The notes under the pieces: model-generated
Told to the model about the DNA's origin: nothing
Databases searched by the model: none
The model's input: only the letters and a program-made list of their open reading frames with translations
Part shown: positions 3,225 to 35,581 of the stretch, piece after piece
Numbering within the stretch: the stretch's first letter is position 1
Layout: the number at the start of each line of letters is the position of its first letter
Source of the DNA: a virus
Reading direction: 5' to 3' (one strand)
DNA length: 35,581 nucleotides
Virus record (IMG/VR): IMGVR_UViG_3300025645_000207
Location: 1 to 35,581 of that record
Made by a program: the position numbers and the translations under genes

Positions 3225-4217
3225 ATGGCGCAGACAAGGTTCACTGGCCCGGTTAAGTCTGACGCTGGCTTCCGTTTCGATACCAGCAACAGCTCTTTGA
3301 CCGGCGTCGGCGACGTCACATGGAACCCCGTATACGGCACCATAAACATCGGTATGCCGGGTGGCGTCACTCAGCAGGTCGGCATGGAAACATATATCTA
3401 TGTTGACAATGCCACCGGGTCCACGATCCCAAACGGCACTGTCGTGAGCTTTGGCGGGGTGAACGGACTGATTGAAGCTGTGCCGTTTGACGCATCTGGA
3501 GTGATCCCGGCCTTGTACCTTCTCGGGGTGACCACACAAGATATTGCCAGCGGTGGCTCCGGCTATGTCACTGTCTTCGGGGAGGTGCATGAGCTAAACA
3601 CCTCCGTCTGGCAGAGCGGAGACATCCTGTACGCCGATCCTGCGGTGCCCGGTGGGCTGACAGCTGTCAAGCCAACAGCCCCGAACGCCGTCGTCGTGGT
3701 GGCTGCCGTCCTCGTCTCCGGAACTACGGACGGCGCACTGTTTATCCGCACTACAATCCCGCTGGAGCAATTCTACGGCGATTTCTCCAGAATGACTAAC
3801 ATGACTGTCCCAACCATTGACACAGCATATACGCTGGAGTTTACCTCGACCGAGCAGTCGAATGGTGTGGTTTTGGGGACACCAGCAAGCCGCGTGGTGG
3901 TGCCTGAGAGCGGCCTGTATCGTGTGCAGGCAAACATCCAGCTGTCCAGCAGCAGTTCCAGCGCAAAGGTCTTCAGGGCTTGGTATCGCAAGAACGGAGT
4001 TGACGTGCCTAATTCTGCCCGGCTTGTCACTGTCTCCGAGAACAATGGCTTCACCCAGATTATCCTAGACTTGACGGCATCCCTGAATGCGAATGACTAC
4101 ATTGAGATTGTCTATTCTGCAGACTCGACCAACGTCACCCTCAATGCTGTGGCCGCAACAGGCTATTCTCCGGCCGGTCCATCTGTTAGAATGACCATAA
4201 CTCAGGCGCAGCTGTAA
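3225..4217 (+). CDS. Tail fibre protein with C1q-like C-terminal domain
   Basis: A 330-residue protein. Residues 1-50 contain short strands (MAQTRFTGPVKSDAGF) typical of fibre anchors. The middle, about 50-180, is beta-rich with IPNGTVVSFGG and GYVTVFGEV. From about 185 to the end the pattern matches C1q/TNF-like jelly rolls: YTLEFTS, VVVPESGLYRVQANIQLS, AWYRKNGVDV, LTASLNANDYIEIVYSADS. Such trimeric heads act in receptor binding. The ribosome site lies in an unusual run of eight G at 3214-3221. The chaperone-like gene just upstream probably serves it. Confidence 0.65.
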   Translation: MAQTRFTGPVKSDAGFRFDTSNSSLTGVGDVTWNPVYGTINIGMPGGVTQQVGMETYIYVDNATGSTIPNGTVVSFGGVNGLIEAVPFDASGVIPALYLLGVTTQDIASGGSGYVTVFGEVHELNTSVWQSGDILYADPAVPGGLTAVKPTAPNAVVVVAAVLVSGTTDGALFIRTTIPLEQFYGDFSRMTNMTVPTIDTAYTLEFTSTEQSNGVVLGTPASRVVVPESGLYRVQANIQLSSSSSSAKVFRAWYRKNGVDVPNSARLVTVSENNGFTQIILDLTASLNANDYIEIVYSADSTNVTLNAVAATGYSPAGPSVRMTITQAQL

Positions 4218-26019: not shown

Positions 26020-26240
26020 TTTGCAATCTCCCTCAGGGCTTTGGCATAGACGTGGCCTGCGTGCGGCCAGTTCAGTCTGACTGGGCCCAGAGATACCTCC
26101 GAGGGCCCAGACGTGACTGCATGATCTTCACAAAATTGCGCTGCATAAAGAAGGGCGTCGCGGCGCGCCTTAGATAGCTGGCGCATCAAGCGAAGGTTAT
26201 GCACCTTCATGCGCGTAAGCTCGCTCACTTCAGCGTCCAT
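26016..26240 (-). CDS. Small helical hypothetical protein
   Basis: I start this 74-residue protein at the ATG at 26240 because AAGGGG lies 8 bases ahead; the frame is open to 26264. The product starts MDAEVSELTRMKVHNLRLMR and is helical and charged, with DALLYAAQFCEDHAV in the middle. It bridges the exonuclease and helicase genes, overlapping the first by 16 bases and the second by 4. A small partner protein is possible; no family recognised. Confidence 0.5.
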   Translation of the reverse strand: MDAEVSELTRMKVHNLRLMRQLSKARRDALLYAAQFCEDHAVTSGPSEVSLGPVRLNWPHAGHVYAKALREIAK

Positions 26241-27112
26241 GATGAAGACCCCTTTCCGCGCCAAGGCTCAAGGTTTGCATCTGGGGCGAGGTGCTTGATC
26301 GCCTTGGCATATGAAATGGATCCGGCACGATCAACCTTTGTCAGCTTTCGGCCGCCGAAGATCGCATTTTGACCCTTTGAGATCAAAACCATTTCCTCCA
26401 GCAGTTCTTTTTTGCGCTCTTCTGCCTGCTCAATTGCCGTCTTTAGGTCATCATATTCGGCAACCATTTGAAGGGCTCGCGACGTGTCGACAATCTTGCG
26501 GGCTTCCTCGAGGTAATCTTCGGGGCTGTCCCGGTTTACGAGGTACTCGCGATAGAATGCCTCTAAGGCGGGAAAGTTTTCGTCAATCCACTTAGGGTTG
26601 AACATCACGATATTCAGGTCCGTTGCATTCGGCGTCCACTGCCAGAAATAACAGACATGGCGGCCGGTGACGAACATCTGAATTTGCATCTGGGCAACGT
26701 AGTGCGGCTGATCTTCAGGCTTTTTGAATTCAGGCATTTCCTTGTCACGCAACCCGAACGGGCACTTGATCTCGATTAGTCCATTTTCGCCAATCAGGCC
26801 GTCCGGGCTCGCGCCGAGCCAGTCAATCTTTGGATGCACATAGAATGAGGCATCCTGAATGATGTGCCCCTGCGACCAGCAGAATTCATCACGGGCCTCG
26901 TTTTCGTGAATAACGCCCCACTGGGTGGCGATGTTTCCAATAAATTCGCGCGGTGCCCCGTGGTGTGCGCGAACCATTTCACGCATGACATCATTGGCAT
27001 CGCGGTATGGGTCAAACCCAAGAATTGCGCCCACGGATGAGGCTGTGATCCGGCCCTCTCGGGCCTTGAACCACGCTTCACTTCTCTGCTCGATGTTAGG
27101 AAAAATTTCCAT
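26225..27112 (-). CDS. YqaJ-type recombination exonuclease
   Basis: A 295-residue protein of the lambda-exonuclease/YqaJ family. Diagnostic motifs: RSEAWFKAREGRITASSVGA near the N-terminus; HENEARDEF at about 69-77; and the catalytic set ASPDG (D104) with LIEIKCP (E114, K116). Residues about 225-245 form a charged helix (IEQAEERKKELLEEM). The enzyme resects double-stranded ends to make 3' tails for annealing. It lies in an operon with a Sak4-like ATPase and an SSB-like protein. Its start overlaps the end of the inserted HNH gene by 17 bases. Confidence 0.9.
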   Translation of the reverse strand: MEIFPNIEQRSEAWFKAREGRITASSVGAILGFDPYRDANDVMREMVRAHHGAPREFIGNIATQWGVIHENEARDEFCWSQGHIIQDASFYVHPKIDWLGASPDGLIGENGLIEIKCPFGLRDKEMPEFKKPEDQPHYVAQMQIQMFVTGRHVCYFWQWTPNATDLNIVMFNPKWIDENFPALEAFYREYLVNRDSPEDYLEEARKIVDTSRALQMVAEYDDLKTAIEQAEERKKELLEEMVLISKGQNAIFGGRKLTKVDRAGSISYAKAIKHLAPDANLEPWRGKGSSSWTLK

Positions 27113-27587
27113 AATACTTACTCCTTGCTTTCATGTATGCGTCTTTAGCCGCCTTAACCGTGCCAAATGACCCAAGAGATATTTGATTACCCTCAACCGT
27201 TATTCTGGCGCCGAAGTTTCCACTTTTAAGAAGCTTAACCCCCATCGGTAGATTTCTTCCGGCCTTTCCGATTTTTCTGTTTTGGGAGTTTTGAAGGTAT
27301 GTTGCCACCCTAAGGTTTTCCCACTTGTCGTTCAGTGAGTTACCATCAATATGATCAACAACATCGCAAGAGGGAAGTGATCCAGTCATATAAAGAAAAG
27401 CCAAATGACTACGCTTCCACTTTTCTCCATTTACTTGAATTATATAATAGGTTTTACCGCGATTTTCTTGCTCATAACCAGCAATCTCACCCAATAGATC
27501 AGGGTGGTTATCCGGTGGAGAAATCCAATACATCAATCCGCTTTTCGGAGAGTATAAAAGAATCTTTTTGAGTTTTTCCTGTTTCAT
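27096..27587 (-). CDS. HNH homing-type endonuclease with AP2-like DNA-binding domain
   Basis: I use the ATG at 27587 (163 residues); a GTG at 27596 would add three. The first half ends in an HNH_3-type motif: SHLAFLYMTGSL, then VVDHIDGNSLNDKWENLRVA and NSQNRK. The C-terminal 50 residues match an AP2 domain: GVKLLKSGNFGARITVEGN, LGSFGTVKAAKDAY. HNH-AP2 proteins are mobile, free-standing homing endonucleases. Base content is visibly AT-rich against its neighbours and it interrupts a recombination operon, both signs of recent insertion. It follows a strong hairpin. Confidence 0.85.
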   Translation of the reverse strand: MKQEKLKKILLYSPKSGLMYWISPPDNHPDLLGEIAGYEQENRGKTYYIIQVNGEKWKRSHLAFLYMTGSLPSCDVVDHIDGNSLNDKWENLRVATYLQNSQNRKIGKAGRNLPMGVKLLKSGNFGARITVEGNQISLGSFGTVKAAKDAYMKARSKYYGNFS

Positions 27588-27609
27588 GCTTCTCACTCAG
27601 GTTTAGGTG

Positions 27610-27644: not shown

Positions 27645-28238
27645 TTAGAATGGAATTTCGTCGTCCATGCCTTGGCGCGAGCGTCCGGAGCTTTGTGCCT
27701 TTGGCGGGGTGCTCGCAATCTTTTTGGCCGCCTCTTCTGACGAGGTGATGGGGCTAGATTTTGGCGAAACCGCGCCAACCCAGTTGCCCTGATTCATCTT
27801 GCCGGTGGCGCGATCTTCCATTTCCCAAACCATGATCTTGATCACCATTGGCTTATTGGTCAGGCCTCCAGTCAAGGTTTCATCGGTTGGACGCTTTCCG
27901 CCGGCCAGCAGTTTACCTCCTGCATTCAGATCGATTGCCGCCAGCATTCGCTTTGCCTTATCGCGGGTTTTTTCTGCATCCTTGGCCCCGGGCTTATCAT
28001 CAGCAACCCAAATCTTCTGGAATACCTTGCGGTTCTTGAACTCTTCTGGCGCAAGGATAGTCCAACGCAAAGAGATATACTCATCTTCGTCTTGGGTTTT
28101 TGCCCATTTAGCCTCGTCAATGATCGCCTTTACCGAGGTGTTATCCGGGATGACTTCCATGTTGCCGCCGCCGGCATCAAACTCGCCGTTGGTGGAGGAG
28201 GAAACGTCTTCGCCGTCCGAGAGATCCCAAAATGCCAT
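27645..28238 (-). CDS. DUF669 / single-strand DNA-binding-like protein
   Basis: A 197-residue protein with the DUF669 pattern: EVIPDNTSVKAIIDEAKW, EDEYISLRWTILAPEEFKNR, KVFQKIWVADD, and a KAKRMLAAIDLNAGG helix. The C-terminal end is disordered and finishes MDDEIPF, like the acidic tip by which SSB proteins recruit partners. It lies two bases downstream of the Sak4-like gene. Sak4 recombinases are known to work with a cognate SSB, which supports this role. AAAGG precedes its ATG. Confidence 0.75.
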   Translation of the reverse strand: MAFWDLSDGEDVSSSTNGEFDAGGGNMEVIPDNTSVKAIIDEAKWAKTQDEDEYISLRWTILAPEEFKNRKVFQKIWVADDKPGAKDAEKTRDKAKRMLAAIDLNAGGKLLAGGKRPTDETLTGGLTNKPMVIKIMVWEMEDRATGKMNQGNWVGAVSPKSSPITSSEEAAKKIASTPPKAQSSGRSRQGMDDEIPF

Positions 28239-28240
28239 GA

Positions 28241-29002
28241 TTATTTGCCTTTCGCTAGGTGTGGAATAAATTGAGCCAATGGGTTCTCGCCCAGTTTGAC
28301 TTCAAGAGGTTCGTTGATGTGGAAACGGTTCTTTGACACGTTGGTGGCCACGGCGTGGCATACCAATTGACGTGTTCCGTCAGAGATCGCCTTCTTGCGC
28401 TCGCTGTCGCCAGTCACAAAGGTTTCGAGCCGCAGGAACCCAACAAGGTCGACATTGTCGACGTACGGCTGCATCGATTTGTCGTGCAGGCGCATGCTGT
28501 ATTTCGTGTATGGGTCCGCATCTGGCGGCTCGATCCGGATGGTGTCTGTGTGAGCTAAGAATACCACGTTGACGCCCCTTTCAACAAGACGTCCCGCTGC
28601 CTTGCGCACACGGCGGTGCATCGTTCCGACCATATCCCGGCCCATGCCGTATCCACCGTGTGCCTGTTGCACGCCGCGCGGCTTCTTTGGATCGGTATCA
28701 ACAACGTGATCTACAAACATGGTTTCGAGCGCGGTGACGCTGTCGATTACAACCGTGTCGTATCCGTGGTCCTCTTGGATCAGCGCCATCAACTGATCCC
28801 ACAGGTCTCCGACTGAGGTCAGCACCGGAAGTGCCATCGGCCGGATGTCATCTGGAATTGACCCCATGCCATCCTCGGCACGGATAAAAACTGGATTTGG
28901 GAATGTTGCCCCCAGTGAGGTCTTGCCTAGGCCGGCGTCGCCGATAATGGTAACCACCACAGCCCCCTGCTTAGGCTTTGTCGCTTGGTCGAGAATACTC
29001 AT
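28241..29002 (-). CDS. Sak4-like RecA-type ATPase
   Basis: A 253-residue P-loop ATPase. Walker A is GDAGLGKTS (21-29) and Walker B is YDTVVIDS (81-88). RAEDGMGSIP follows the first strand, with GVNVVFLAHTDT as the next core strand and GFLRLE further on. The size, AAA_24-type layout and operon position match Sak4 single-strand annealing recombinases. AAAGGACAG precedes the ATG. It is the first gene of the minus-strand operon, so it should be expressed directly from the divergent promoter region. Confidence 0.8.
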   Translation of the reverse strand: MSILDQATKPKQGAVVVTIIGDAGLGKTSLGATFPNPVFIRAEDGMGSIPDDIRPMALPVLTSVGDLWDQLMALIQEDHGYDTVVIDSVTALETMFVDHVVDTDPKKPRGVQQAHGGYGMGRDMVGTMHRRVRKAAGRLVERGVNVVFLAHTDTIRIEPPDADPYTKYSMRLHDKSMQPYVDNVDLVGFLRLETFVTGDSERKKAISDGTRQLVCHAVATNVSKNRFHINEPLEVKLGENPLAQFIPHLAKGK

Positions 29003-31861: not shown

Positions 31862-32473
31862 ATGAACCTTACAAGCAATATCCGCAGCAATATCTTATAT
31901 TCTGCTATGAAGAGCCTTCCTACAGCCAATTACATGGAGCTTTTGGTCCCAGTTGTGCAAAACGTGCTTTATGCATTTATGCCAACGGAAATCAAAGTTG
32001 CTTATGATAACCCAGAAACAAGAAAATACCTTCATTCTTTTGAGGTTTTGATAAAAGAGGGTAATGGGTATAATGGATCATCAGGGAATCTTAAAAGTGG
32101 AAATGGTATTGCTTATCTTTATGGATCAAAAGATCAAATAAGGAAGCTAGAGGTAAGAGTTGATAAGGCGGTAATGATGCATTTGAAAGAAGGAACTTTA
32201 AATCACGCGCTGTCAAAAGCCGTTATTAATTCTGGTCTTTTTTCTGCCTATGTTGAGCAATCGGCCTTGATTGAAAGCGTAAGAATTCGTTTGAGATCAA
32301 CGCTTGATAGTGTTCGAACTACCAAGCGTTTGTACGAAGTCTTGGAGCCAGAGCTGCACTATCTAGTGCCGAAGGATAATGATAAGACAGCAAACCTCCC
32401 CGCAAATGTTGCTCCTATTGTGGATGATTTGCGCAAACTTGGTGCGGTTTTACCTGAAGTGAATAAAGGATAA
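31862..32473 (+). CDS. AT-rich protein, possible Nmad5-like (nucleotide modification associated)
   Basis: A 203-residue protein with AAGGA before its ATG. The start NLTSNIRSNILYSAMKSLPT and the following AFMPTEIKVAYDNPETRKYL resemble the Nmad5 domain that occurs in phages near nucleotide-modifying enzymes; I recognise this only loosely. A Gly/Asn-rich loop and a helical end (RSTLDSVRTTKRLYEVLEPE) follow. Base content is visibly AT-rich compared with the genes on either side, suggesting transfer from another source. The next gene encodes a ThyX-like protein, which would fit nucleotide metabolism. An unrelated early phage protein is possible. Confidence 0.4.
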   Translation: MNLTSNIRSNILYSAMKSLPTANYMELLVPVVQNVLYAFMPTEIKVAYDNPETRKYLHSFEVLIKEGNGYNGSSGNLKSGNGIAYLYGSKDQIRKLEVRVDKAVMMHLKEGTLNHALSKAVINSGLFSAYVEQSALIESVRIRLRSTLDSVRTTKRLYEVLEPELHYLVPKDNDKTANLPANVAPIVDDLRKLGAVLPEVNKG

Positions 32474-32477
32474 AAAC

Positions 32478-33389
32478 ATGAAAAAAATATACAAACACCC
32501 GAAAAACCAAGAGATGCAGGTCGAAGTGGTTTTGGCGTCAAAGGGCGGTGACAACTGCCCAAATCTCTATACCATTCGGATGCGGTATCCCCGGATCATC
32601 CATGGCGAGATCCTGACCCACCGGGTATTTTCGCGGAATGGGCGGTCCTCGCGGGCGGTTCCTGTGAAGACCATGCTGGCAGAGCTGATGCAGATCCCGT
32701 TTGTCCCATGGCACTGGGGTAAGAACCAGAAGGGCATGCAGGCCTCGGAAGAATGCAATGAGATGATCAAGATACCTGATTGGGGTGATGTAAACTTTCA
32801 CGGCACCCCGAAGACCTATTCGCACACCCGTGAAGAAGCTTGGCTCTCTGCTCGCGATGCGGCCGTGTCTCACGCAGAAGCCTTTATGGCGGCCGGCTAT
32901 CACAAGCAGATCGTGAACCGTTTGCTGGAACCATTTGCGTGGATGGACACCTTAGTCACCTCGACCAGCTGGAACAATTTTCTGCATCTTCGCGATCATG
33001 TTGATGCAGAGCCTCACTTGAAGGATCTGGCGCGGATGGTACGGCAGGCCATTGAAGAAGCCGATGTTGAGAAAATCGAACACGACAATTGGCACCTGCC
33101 CTATATCACTCAAGAAGATCGGGAAAATTTAGGCGGACACAAGATGAATTTGATCAAGGTGTCGGCCGCGCGCTGTGCACGGATCAGCTACAAGCCGTTC
33201 AATGGGGATGCATCTTATGAGGCTGAGCTGGCGCGCTACGACGGCCTTGTGACCTCTGACAGGATCCATGCATCTCCCATGGAGCATCAGGCAAGCCCGG
33301 ACTCCCATTGGCTTGATCCTATGTATTCTGGAAACTTTATTGGATGGGCCCAGTACCGTAAACTGATCAAAGGGGAGTATGTCGAATGA
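32478..33389 (+). CDS. ThyX-like flavin-dependent thymidylate synthase, circularly permuted
   Basis: A 303-residue protein of a phage family usually annotated as ThyX. THR-x7-S (T47 H48 R49 ... S57) stands for the ThyX motif RHR-x7-S, with Thr replacing the first Arg. The dUMP-binding and helix part follows (NRLLEPFAWMDTLVTSTSWN, then NFLHLRDHVDAE). The segment that normally opens ThyX, the AARVSF and HETPFEH region, is instead near the end here: VSAARCARISY (228-238) and IHASPMEHQ (263-271). The order of the two ThyX parts is therefore swapped. ThyX makes dTMP from dUMP using methylenetetrahydrofolate and FAD. The gene overlaps the next ATG by four bases. Confidence 0.8.
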   Translation: MKKIYKHPKNQEMQVEVVLASKGGDNCPNLYTIRMRYPRIIHGEILTHRVFSRNGRSSRAVPVKTMLAELMQIPFVPWHWGKNQKGMQASEECNEMIKIPDWGDVNFHGTPKTYSHTREEAWLSARDAAVSHAEAFMAAGYHKQIVNRLLEPFAWMDTLVTSTSWNNFLHLRDHVDAEPHLKDLARMVRQAIEEADVEKIEHDNWHLPYITQEDRENLGGHKMNLIKVSAARCARISYKPFNGDASYEAELARYDGLVTSDRIHASPMEHQASPDSHWLDPMYSGNFIGWAQYRKLIKGEYVE

Positions 33390-33772
33390 GTGATGATCTT
33401 GTAGCCATTGCCCGCCGCGCGAAGGGCAGCGCCGTCCTGCCCACAGTCAGCTTTGGGGTGCTGAATGCCGAAACCCTGATCCTTAAGCTGGCCGACCGCA
33501 TCGAGGAACTGGAAGGGCAACTAAAAAACGTCCTTGACCGTGAAGCTGCGACTTTTGCTCGGTATGACGCAAAGCTGGATGCAGCAGATGCCAAGCTGGC
33601 GAAGGCGGAAGCTCTAATGTTCGCAGGGTTTGCAGAATATGAACGTAGGCTGGCCTTATCGGTGGAGTTTACGAAAGGGGTAATTCGTCACGCTGGTAAT
33701 AGCGGAGATGACTACTTAGCGGAACAAGCCCGCACCACCCTCGCAGAACTGAAAGGACAGGACGATGAGTGA
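33386..33772 (+). CDS. MSDD array protein 1, coiled coil
   Basis: A 128-residue protein starting MSDDLVAIARRAKGS and ending TTLAELKGQDDE. A coiled coil carries DRIEELEGQLKNV and later DAADAKLAKAEAL. It begins with ATGA overlapping the ThyX stop and ends with an 8-base overlap into member 2. It is the first of six neighbours with the same start and end but different middles. Proteins with the MSDDLV...DRIEELEAKL...ELKGE frame are common small accessory proteins of phages. Function unknown. Confidence 0.6.
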   Translation: MSDDLVAIARRAKGSAVLPTVSFGVLNAETLILKLADRIEELEGQLKNVLDREAATFARYDAKLDAADAKLAKAEALMFAGFAEYERRLALSVEFTKGVIRHAGNSGDDYLAEQARTTLAELKGQDDE

Positions 33773-33980
33773 TGATTTAGATACATCAAAACACACCTTC
33801 ACGTTTGGGTCTCCGACTGTGAATGAAGCAACTTTCCACTTTACGGACAAAAGCTATACGTTGCCTGCGGTAGAGCATAAACAATACGACCCTCTCACGT
33901 CCCTTTGTGCAGTTGTCGTCGAGCTTCACAATCGGGTTCAGGCGCTTGAGGCAGAACTGAAAGGACGGGACGATGAGTGA
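33765..33980 (+). CDS. MSDD array protein 2, short
   Basis: A 71-residue protein, the shortest member. It keeps MSDDLD at the start and EAELKGRDDE at the end, but the middle (TFTFGSPTVNEATFHFTDKS) is beta-like, and it lacks the RIEELE coiled-coil motif. LCAVVVELHNRVQALEAEL forms a short helix near the end. It overlaps its neighbours by 8 bases on both sides, unlike the 4-base overlaps later in the array. Function unknown. Confidence 0.55.
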   Translation: MSDDLDTSKHTFTFGSPTVNEATFHFTDKSYTLPAVEHKQYDPLTSLCAVVVELHNRVQALEAELKGRDDE

Positions 33981-34362
33981 TGATCTGGTGAAGCGGCTGC
34001 GCTTTTTCGGCCCACCCATTGGTGAAGAAGCCGCCGACCGCATCGAGGAGTTGGAGGCCGCAATAAAGCGTCAGGCTGGCGCTGCGAGAACTCTGCGTCA
34101 GCTTACTTTAGCAGAGGTGCAGCACTTATCTGACATGGACCGATCTGAATATTTTGCAGCGCAGACACTTAATAGTGAGCGAGATGCAAATGCCATACTT
34201 ACCGAACGCATCGAGGAACTGGAGGCTGATCGTGCGAAGGCAATTGAGGCTCTGGATGAGGCTATCTATTTGCTTGATCCCGATGAAGAAGACATTACCA
34301 AAGGGACTGGACTATATCGCATCGTCAAGGCTTTTAAAGAACTGAAAGGAGAACAGCTATGA
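33973..34362 (+). CDS. MSDD array protein 3, coiled coil
   Basis: A 129-residue protein starting MSDDLVKRLRFFGPP and ending AFKELKGEQL. The RIEELE motif appears twice: ADRIEELEAAIKRQ and TERIEELEADRAKA. The first is preceded by GEEAAD. A Leu-rich helix lies between them. The DNA at the start is nearly the same as in members 5 and 6 (MSDDLVKR). It overlaps the next gene by four bases. Confidence 0.6.
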   Translation: MSDDLVKRLRFFGPPIGEEAADRIEELEAAIKRQAGAARTLRQLTLAEVQHLSDMDRSEYFAAQTLNSERDANAILTERIEELEADRAKAIEALDEAIYLLDPDEEDITKGTGLYRIVKAFKELKGEQL

Positions 34363-34742
34363 GTGATGATATGACGATAGATGATCTGACAGTGGTTGGT
34401 ATTGACGGCATTAGGCGCAGCTTTGACGAACACTACGACACAATGATGTGCGTAGAACAAGACCCAACAGGCGCACACCATGTCATCCACAACCAACATG
34501 CTCGCATCGAGGAACTGGAGGCCAAGCTGGCGAAGGCGGTGGATGCGCTGGAAGGGTGGATAAACGTCTACACACATTGCACCATCGAAGCGGGCGTCTG
34601 TTGCTGCGGGGACGACATGAATGGCCACCAGCTGGCAATGGATAGCAACCACATGCCGCTGGATCACGGTGCTTACATTGCTGGAGAACTTGCAAAACAA
34701 ACAGAGACCACCCTCGCAGAAATGAAAGGAGAGCATCCATGA
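34359..34742 (+). CDS. MSDD array protein 4, with Cys/His cluster
   Basis: A 127-residue protein starting MSDDMTIDDLTV and ending TTLAEMKGEHP. The middle has ARIEELEAKLAKAVDALEGW, whose DNA is identical over 41 bases to member 5. The second half contains a Cys/His-rich segment (CTIEAGVCCCGDDMNGHQLA, then NHMPLDHGAY) that looks like a small metal-binding domain of a type seen in other phage proteins. It is the only member with this domain. Confidence 0.6.
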   Translation: MSDDMTIDDLTVVGIDGIRRSFDEHYDTMMCVEQDPTGAHHVIHNQHARIEELEAKLAKAVDALEGWINVYTHCTIEAGVCCCGDDMNGHQLAMDSNHMPLDHGAYIAGELAKQTETTLAEMKGEHP

Positions 34743-35116
34743 GTGATGATCTAGTGAAGCGGCTGCAATACTTAGGCCGTTGTGCAAAAGACTACGACCA
34801 AGAACATATGACCAGCGCGGATTATGAGATGATTCCCATAGTCACAAAAGAAGTTGCCGACCGCATCGAGGAACTGGAGGCCAAGCTGGCGAAGGCGGTG
34901 GAGGCGCTGTCATATGAAGGACTACGAACAGATGAAGCAGAAGCAAAACTGACAATAGCGATGGTTGGTCTTGTGCAGTCACGAGATGAACTCGATCAGT
35001 ACTCGCAGTGGGAATACCCCTCTGACCATCCAGTGCATGAACGCTATCGCAAGCGGGACTATGACGCAAACCCAGCCCGCATCGCCATCGCCAAAATCAA
35101 AGGAGAACAGCCATGA
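34739..35116 (+). CDS. MSDD array protein 5, coiled coil
   Basis: A 125-residue protein starting MSDDLVKRLQYLGRC and ending IAIAKIKGEQP. ADRIEELEAKLAKAVEALSY matches member 4 in DNA. The second half (LRTDEAEAKLTIAMVGLVQS, then a Tyr/His-rich loop) differs from all others. ATGA overlaps with both neighbours imply translational coupling along the array. Confidence 0.6.
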   Translation: MSDDLVKRLQYLGRCAKDYDQEHMTSADYEMIPIVTKEVADRIEELEAKLAKAVEALSYEGLRTDEAEAKLTIAMVGLVQSRDELDQYSQWEYPSDHPVHERYRKRDYDANPARIAIAKIKGEQP

Positions 35117-35505
35117 GTGATGATCTAGTGAAGCGGTGGGATGAATACGTTGACAGTATGGGTAGTGTCATGGGCGAAGTAGAACACATGGCACAGCAAA
35201 TGCGGGACCGTATCGAGGAACTGGAAGTCAAGCTGCAAGACGCAGAACAGCGGGGTTACGCTAATGCAATGGAAGCCGAACGCATATTGCATGAGGATCG
35301 CATCGAGGAACTGGAGAAAGCCTGCAAGGAATGGGCTGACGTATCACAGTCAAACTACCAGCGAGCAAAGGCGGCAGAGGCCAAGCTGGAGGTGGCTTTT
35401 ACTGACCTAGAACAAGATTGCGAGGCTGATTACCTACCGTCGTATGGTGCAATGAAGTATTATATACAGCGCGCACTTGCAGAACTGAAAGGAGAGCAGC
35501 CATGA
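35113..35505 (+). CDS. MSDD array protein 6, coiled coil
   Basis: A 130-residue protein starting MSDDLVKRWDEYVDSMGS and ending RALAELKGEQP. It has two RIEELE motifs (RDRIEELEVKLQDA, HEDRIEELEKACKEW) and AEAKLEVAFTDLEQD. Its final junction repeats the same ribosome-site DNA found between the other members, here leading into a different, Cys-rich gene. Confidence 0.6.
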   Translation: MSDDLVKRWDEYVDSMGSVMGEVEHMAQQMRDRIEELEVKLQDAEQRGYANAMEAERILHEDRIEELEKACKEWADVSQSNYQRAKAAEAKLEVAFTDLEQDCEADYLPSYGAMKYYIQRALAELKGEQP

Positions 35506-35581
35506 CCTGCCCACCCTGCAACCACAACTGCAACCAAGGGCGAGATTGCCCAGCACGGAAAGGTGAAAACATGAAACTTCC
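35502..35581 (+). CDS. Cys-rich small protein, partial (3' end outside window)
   Basis: The ATG overlaps the stop of array member 6 (ATGA) and follows the array's AAAGGAG ribosome site. The visible product is MTCPPCNHNCNQGRDCPARK and a few more residues, with five Cys in the first 16 residues, suggesting a metal-binding site. The frame stays open to the window edge. An in-frame ATG at 35571 could be a separate start or an internal Met. Confidence 0.5.
   Translation, partial: MTCPPCNHNCNQGRDCPARKGENMKL

Follow-up and report, generated by a model that had tools for sequence, protein, structure and literature searches.

Why should six neighboring phage genes begin and end almost identically when their interiors are unrelated? 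The question is raised by a run of small open reading frames (ORFs) at positions 33386-35505 of the IMG/VR virus record IMGVR_UViG_3300025645_000207, a viral stretch of 35,581 bp that we call the window. We conclude that the run is very probably a modular array of small proteins that exchanges parts by homologous recombination at two kinds of DNA handle, an in-frame linker within the genes and the junction between one gene and the next.

The six genes share heads, linkers, and tails

The six consecutive ORFs lie on the plus strand and overlap their neighbors by 4 or 8 nt (member 1, 33386..33772, 128 aa; member 2, 33765..33980, 71 aa; member 3, 33973..34362, 129 aa; member 4, 34359..34742, 127 aa; member 5, 34739..35116, 125 aa; member 6, 35113..35505, 130 aa). 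Every member begins ATGAGTGATGAT. Six copies of the 11-mer ATGAGTGATGA are present in the window, each at the start of an array gene, and there are none on the opposite strand. The tails read, from member 1 to member 6, ELKGQDDE, ELKGRDDE, ELKGEQL, EMKGEHP, KIKGEQP, and ELKGEQP, and the DNA encoding them (CTGAAAGGAGA...) doubles as a purine-rich ribosome site for the following gene. The original prediction, made from the window alone, had described these identical starts and dual-purpose ELKGE-type tails, and the ORFs bear it out. It was equally correct about the shared RIEELE and AKLAKA blocks, the 41 nt that are exactly identical between members 4 and 5 (34503-34543 and 34862-34902), and the Cys/His cluster of member 4 (CCCGDDMNGH).

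Read from the sequence, each gene is composed of a head (MSDDLVKRL), an N-module, a helical linker (ADRIEELEAKLAKAVEAL), a C-module, and a tail (ARTTLAELKGE). Linker handles were located in member 1 (the RIEELE block at 33488..33541, with a second block, GCCAAGCTGGCGAAGGCGG, at 33590-33608), member 3 (34033..34080, second copy at 34207-34254), member 4 (34503..34550, containing the 41 nt in common with member 5), member 5 (34856..34909), and member 6 (35208..35240, second copy at 35299-35316). Junction handles, which combine tail, ribosome site, and start, lie at 33728..33776 (members 1/2), 33943..34001 (2/3), 34335..34372 (3/4), 34709..34764 (4/5), and 35090..35138 (5/6), all on the plus strand like the linkers. 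Members 5 and 6 match exactly over 26 nt spanning their starts; the exact linker matches among the remaining members measure 17 to 23 nt. Apart from the head, linker, and tail blocks, the six members are not recognizable as duplicates of one another. The terminal tail and ribosome site of member 6 (35476..35505, plus strand) overlap the next ORF (MTCPPCNHNC..., start 35502); this gene after the array (MTCPPCNHNCNQGRDCPARKGENMKL..., window 35502-35581) uses that same tail and ribosome site.

Modules recur in other phages with different partners

We then collected relatives in three ways: by protein searches with the members, by scanning IMG/VR for the junction pattern GAACTGAAAGGA-N5-12-ATGAGTGA (64 stretches), and by a later linker scan (17 stretches). 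The protein searches and the junction-pattern scan gave the comparison set of 67 linker-bearing genes from 43 contigs. The consensus over the relatives was MSDDLVxxL ... ADRIEELEAK ... LAKAVExL ... ARxTLAELKGE, with highly diverse stretches between the blocks. Grouping the loci by shared 60-mers proved unworkable because the modules themselves are common to different phages.

All six window genes contain modules that recur elsewhere, in most cases in different combinations. Member 4 has an N-module found also in L013, L073, L074, L075, and L149 with unrelated C-modules: its partner in the window is the Cys/His module, L013 and L074 have a GNGDRYGNSDGN module in that place, and L149 has a sigma-70 region 4 helix-turn-helix. 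The N-module of member 5 is also present in L004 and L005, and its C-module (phrog_24044) in L113 and, preceded by unrelated N-modules, in L002/L003, L006, and the cultured Sulfitobacter phages pCB2047-A/C. The C-module of member 3 occurs with a different N-module in L118, and the N, middle, and C parts of member 6 are each found in different phages (N in L077; middle in L078-L080, L089, and L099; C in L018 and L081-L086). A middle segment of member 1 (EALM.AGFAEYE.RLA) is present in L074 as well, and member 2 has a full-length relative in L115 (63%). In the isolate P12053L, the protein gp11 has the C-module of an L115 gene and a different N-module, and a 59-nt alignment at 33920-33978, around the 2/3 junction, is 90% identical to the same isolate.

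Two further observations concern isolates. Celeribacter phage P12053L (L045, NC_018280.1) has an unannotated 24-aa gene at ~4057-4134, MSDEMAELHNRIQVLEAELKGQDYE, which is apparently a relative of member 2 with the middle deleted. The Cys/His C-module of member 4, also found in L011, reappears in Klebsiella phage vB_Kpn2-P2 (L201, 2414-2737; GVCCCGDNMQGH...GHSPLD) behind a probable membrane helix; the distribution of this module, which reaches an enterobacterial phage, thus exceeds the array family.

Searches outside this set returned little. By tblastn against isolate phages, neither member 6 nor one of the L074 members had a match, and a linker search of isolate phages gave only apparently chance coiled-coil matches (Gordonia and Thermus phages). 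We also looked for the 41-nt linker, allowing up to 3 mismatches, in 391 genomes from the order to which a Neomegalonema bin belongs; none contained it, so this order yielded no host prophage reservoir. The junction pattern had 45 scattered matches in bacterial genomes, mostly Firmicutes and apparently unrelated, which a shared ribosome-site-like sequence may explain.

Similarity breaks off at the handles

Where do genes that have one module in common stop being alike? Among pairs from different contigs that share an N-module, 38 of 40 had a C-module identity below 0.3, and the mean DNA identity fell from ~0.8 before the linker to ~0.27 just after it. Pairs sharing the C-module gave the mirror image of this profile, and pairs with neither module in common were alike (0.83 to 0.90) at the linker only. 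Maximum-likelihood change-points lay inside the linker in 37 of 38 N-sharing pairs, for a uniform expectation of 8.5, and at or slightly before its proximal edge in all eight C-sharing pairs; together, these positions form the pattern expected of crossovers within the handle. As a control, we evaluated other ORFs at these loci, whose homologous pairs were alike over their full length in 208 of 297 cases, compared with 5 of 157 in the array family, whose pairs include some that are alike mainly through the handles. Once handle residues were discounted, at most 14 of 75 family pairs were similar across the whole gene.

Breakpoint positions within the linker range from +14 to +44 nt, which argues against a fixed cut site. 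No site-specific recombinase of an integron or other cassette system was found among the window proteins scanned, in a survey that included no dedicated search for recombinases or att sites.

These results modify what had been predicted for the locus, namely, that conserved ends serve as handles and that whole genes or middles are swapped. Breakpoints for gain, loss, and swapping do occur at the ends, and at the linkers as well, but handle activity is highest at the internal linker and not confined to the ends; whole genes do move, and the other unit of exchange is an N- or C-module rather than a middle. Gene number and content were expected to vary among relatives with breakpoints at the shared blocks, and they do; a fixed gene order with evenly spread changes was not seen.

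Recent exchanges between near-identical phages

Three contigs of one phage type (L202, L035, and L022) provide a view of recent replacement between two handles. They are ~98% identical just upstream of the replaced segment, and all have the N-module MTSIDRMSVERLAEYISPDVRRVMLAQA and the linker, followed by three different segments that run up to the next junction (L202, 5768-5847; L035, 3194-3261; L022, 593-1185, which includes a whole extra gene). From that junction on, L202 and L022 are again 97% identical over 2 kb. At the level of a whole gene, exchange is seen between L074 (5772-6002) and L099: the shared stretch sets in ~25 nt before the start and runs out near the stop, with unrelated flanks.

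Gene content also varies between phages with related core genes. When 40 array-bearing records were tested, only the L004 record was strong for both the window primase (60%) and Sak4 (63%); L089 likewise shares the window primase (PrimPol) and Sak4 at ~60%, and these core genes are not shared by most array carriers tested. L004 and L089 have one or two family genes, located downstream of the primase, and the window has six, so gene number and content vary among core relatives.

Could the array have arisen by tandem duplication of an ancestral gene copied six times, with constrained ends and coiled coil and drifting middles? The start, tail, and linker common to all six genes would agree with this, as would intragenomic copies elsewhere (two L074 genes have one C-module in common). 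Against it, the array genes share ~80 to 100% of an N- or C-module with genes of other phages and nothing past the linker, the change-points are sharp, and near-identical phages carry three alternative segments at one place. Simple tandem duplication was rejected because the steps in similarity are abrupt, where drift would give none, and most members contradict it; we regard this origin as highly improbable.

All the large comparisons rest on assembled viral contigs, and short repeats might have led assemblers to join unrelated genes. The contig L046, nearly identical to the window, has the same six genes in the same order (4 internal single-nucleotide polymorphisms [SNPs] in ~7.8 kb), and this agreement over the array makes an artifact unlikely. 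In addition, L202 and L205 carry the same allele, L022 and L202 are ~97% identical on both sides of the replaced segment, and swaps are seen in cultured phages (gp11 of P12053L compared with L115, and the member 5 C-module in pCB2047-A). Misassembly is therefore barely conceivable as the source of the pattern. Of the four SNPs that distinguish L046 from the window, two fall within the linker of member 5, separated by 15 nt (34861 and 34876); both are synonymous and possibly represent a small conversion tract.

The handles are conserved as DNA

We evaluated codon choice in the linkers and found it to be fixed by position: Arg is CGC in 60/67 cases (usage, 24%), Ala is GCC in 43/47 (27%), and Lys is AAG in 34/34 (60%). 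The same profile was present in 23 genes of contigs retrieved by the junction pattern alone and is thus not a product of linker-based searching. A comparison of the array with 61 other viral contigs gave 105 exact matches of 24 nt or longer, and every one of them falls within a linker or a junction, although linkers and junctions together occupy 41% of the array. The longest exact handle matches were 50 nt in a linker (member 5 compared with linkers of unrelated phages, L035) and 49 nt in a junction (1/2, identical to the L113 junction); 36 nt of the 5/6 junction are identical to the L011 junction. Around their starts, genes with unrelated N-modules resemble one another from ~-18 to +24, and their similarity is at background outside this interval. 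The array thus displays a short conserved sequence at junctions flanking nonhomologous genes, as in exchange of the boundary-sequence type, and highly similar fragments next to unrelated remainders, as in phage protein domain mosaicism.

Homologous recombination is not the only process that could yield such joints. Illegitimate recombination could create joints anywhere, with selection retaining the rare in-frame products that survive at domain borders, and with the handles being kept as ribosome site, start, and coiled coil. It has been deemed an attractive source of mosaicism, since boundary sequences are not found at most joints (PMC3029335), and both linker and junction clearly serve coding and expression. 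Yet the linker codons are fixed far past usage, and exact identities of 30 to 50 nt between unrelated genes occur only in the handles, a pattern expected from homologous exchange but not from constraint on the protein alone; we hold an illegitimate origin to be unlikely.

Conservation of the linker at the DNA level could also mean that linker and junction are regulatory elements (for example, an operator, an RNA element, or a site bound by a protein), with recombination being incidental; mycobacteriophages have conserved start-associated sequences of unknown role (PMC3203893). The linker, however, keeps one reading frame throughout, always within a predicted helix, and also occurs in genes that stand alone outside arrays. 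A primarily regulatory role seems very unlikely to us, and it is in any case compatible with recombination at the same sites.

Predicted properties of the proteins and probable host

Pfam and PHROG scans of the six members gave little besides coiled-coil noise and phrog_24044 in member 5. The linker shows an a/d-like hydrophobic pattern and is predicted, by models of low confidence (pLDDT 59 and 68), to form one continuous helix, which makes it likely that the members are coiled-coil adaptors. Among the relatives, the N-module of L211 is Lar-like (phrog_599, 7.9e-8; PF14354, E value of 1.6e-5, below the curated cutoff at 25.5 versus 28.6 bits) and the C-module of L149 is a sigma-70 region 4 helix-turn-helix, above the cutoff; none of the six window members matches the Lar zinc domain (PF14354, TIGR03655). 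These two modules hint at host takeover or regulation, and the members might, more weakly, be oligomeric coiled-coil adaptors serving host takeover, antirestriction, or regulation. The window phage is probably a tailed phage of Rhodobacteraceae.

A possible route of exchange

In the mechanism that we favor, the DNA handles, whether in-frame linkers or gene junctions, differ little from one otherwise unrelated gene to another and would support homologous recombination between coinfecting phages. A crossover in the linker would swap N-modules against C-modules, and two crossovers in junctions would insert, delete, or exchange a whole gene; the reading frame, ribosome site, and start would be preserved in every such exchange. 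That the exchange is homologous recombination is what we infer from the sequence comparisons above. The catalyst may be the phage's own Sak4, SSB, and RecE/YqaJ-type exonuclease or, alternatively, the host RecA.

The window phage indeed encodes a recombination module, all on the minus strand: a Sak4-like single-strand annealing protein (28241..29002), an adjoining phage single-strand binding protein (SSB; 27645..28238), and a RecE-like/YqaJ exonuclease (26225..27112), with profile matches to phrog_124 (4.3e-43), phrog_9002 (2.5e-57), and phrog_434 (2.6e-45). Sak4 and the exonuclease are the candidate catalysts. The gene of an HNH/AP2 homing-type endonuclease (27096-27596, minus strand) lies between the exonuclease and SSB genes. 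The minimal pairing segment is 31 to 34 bp for RecA and 23 to 27 bp for Red-beta (PMC3945230); shared handles reach 26 to 50 nt, which makes exchange by a phage or host recombinase plausible.

Several points weigh against this reading. The N-sharing pairs cover nine N-clusters and 23 contigs, so the independent events are fewer than the pairs. Handle presence is partly ascertained, since some loci were retrieved with linker or junction patterns, and this applies to the count of 105 exact matches as well; the drop in similarity past the handle is free of such ascertainment. Sak4 anneals strands with its SSB, yet has low recombination activity in vivo (PMC5928155), and many array carriers, most of which are fragments, gave no match to the window Sak4. 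The host assignment depends on a few isolates (Celeribacter, Sulfitobacter) with parts in common, and the low-confidence structure models are too weak for a fold search.

A broader conjecture, which we put forward tentatively and which may well prove wrong, is that the handles are selected as recombination sites rather than kept for expression and coiled-coil folding. Alphaproteobacterial phages would then maintain a common stock of host-takeover proteins in the form of combinable N- and C-modules, and a DNA "connector standard" would enable even unrelated phages to exchange these in frame during coinfection by means of their own annealing recombinases.

Other features of the window

Directly upstream of the array is a ThyX-like thymidylate synthase (32478..33389, plus strand). 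It adjoins a protein (31862-32473) that matches Pfam Nmad5 (nucleotide modification associated) at the cutoff, making base modification possible. Far from the array, a 141-bp unit is repeated in 3.8 tandem copies (82% matches) at 1450-1973, inside ORF 1291-2007, where it encodes TRGVFGGG...MDYITIAT repeats; the product looks like a repetitive virion or fiber protein.

Significance and comparison with known systems

Whether mosaic joints stem from homologous exchange at boundary sequences or from illegitimate recombination is a long-standing question (PMC3029335). The array offers a clear example from nature of phage mosaic joints that fall on short stretches of shared DNA, even within coding sequence, and the two origins are testable here: the handles are short and open to synonymous recoding, and recent exchanges are known from near-identical phages. 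Searching for the connector and then listing the modules plugged into it is also a way to mine unknown phage proteins; a first pass already yields the Lar-like and sigma-70 region 4 modules. Handle swaps would let new small proteins, probably of the host-takeover type, form without breaking expression.

In T4, repeated intergenic elements (promoter stem-loops) aid the exchange of small neighboring genes; the handle of the array, in contrast, consists of coding sequence together with a ribosome site, and the swaps extend to halves of genes. The HsdS specificity subunits of type I restriction systems exchange variable domains via conserved helical regions; they differ from the array proteins in function, and no sequence relationship is expected. 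The Ea22/Ead-like lambdoid early proteins are small, with variable ends around a RIAELE-like helix, but no window member has a Pfam match to that family.

Three elements of our description are known already: junction boundary sequences (PMC3029335), start-associated sequences (PMC3203893), and domain mosaicism (PMC10684548). For the pairing of in-frame linker and junction handles, common as DNA to phages that are otherwise unrelated, we found no description in the literature searched. Phage protein domain mosaicism shuffles fragments between diverse phages, is ongoing, and is expected to be much more frequent in accessory proteins of unknown function (PMC10684548); that study concerns core functions linked to the host interaction, and the portion cited here reports no DNA handle, whereas the exchange points of the array are a fixed DNA sequence and its proteins are small, accessory, and arranged in arrays. 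Cluster K mycobacteriophages have a conserved short start-associated sequence before many unrelated small genes, for which the cited portion of the report describes no conserved internal linker or tail and shows no role in exchange (PMC3203893). The boundary sequences between lambdoid phage genes, proposed as sites of homologous recombination (discussed in PMC3029335), resemble the junction handle: they too are short and conserved, lie where small early genes overlap, and mark points at which unrelated genes are exchanged. The array differs from them in that its junction handle includes the coding tail, a second, in-frame handle joins protein modules, and the handles are common to otherwise unrelated phages.

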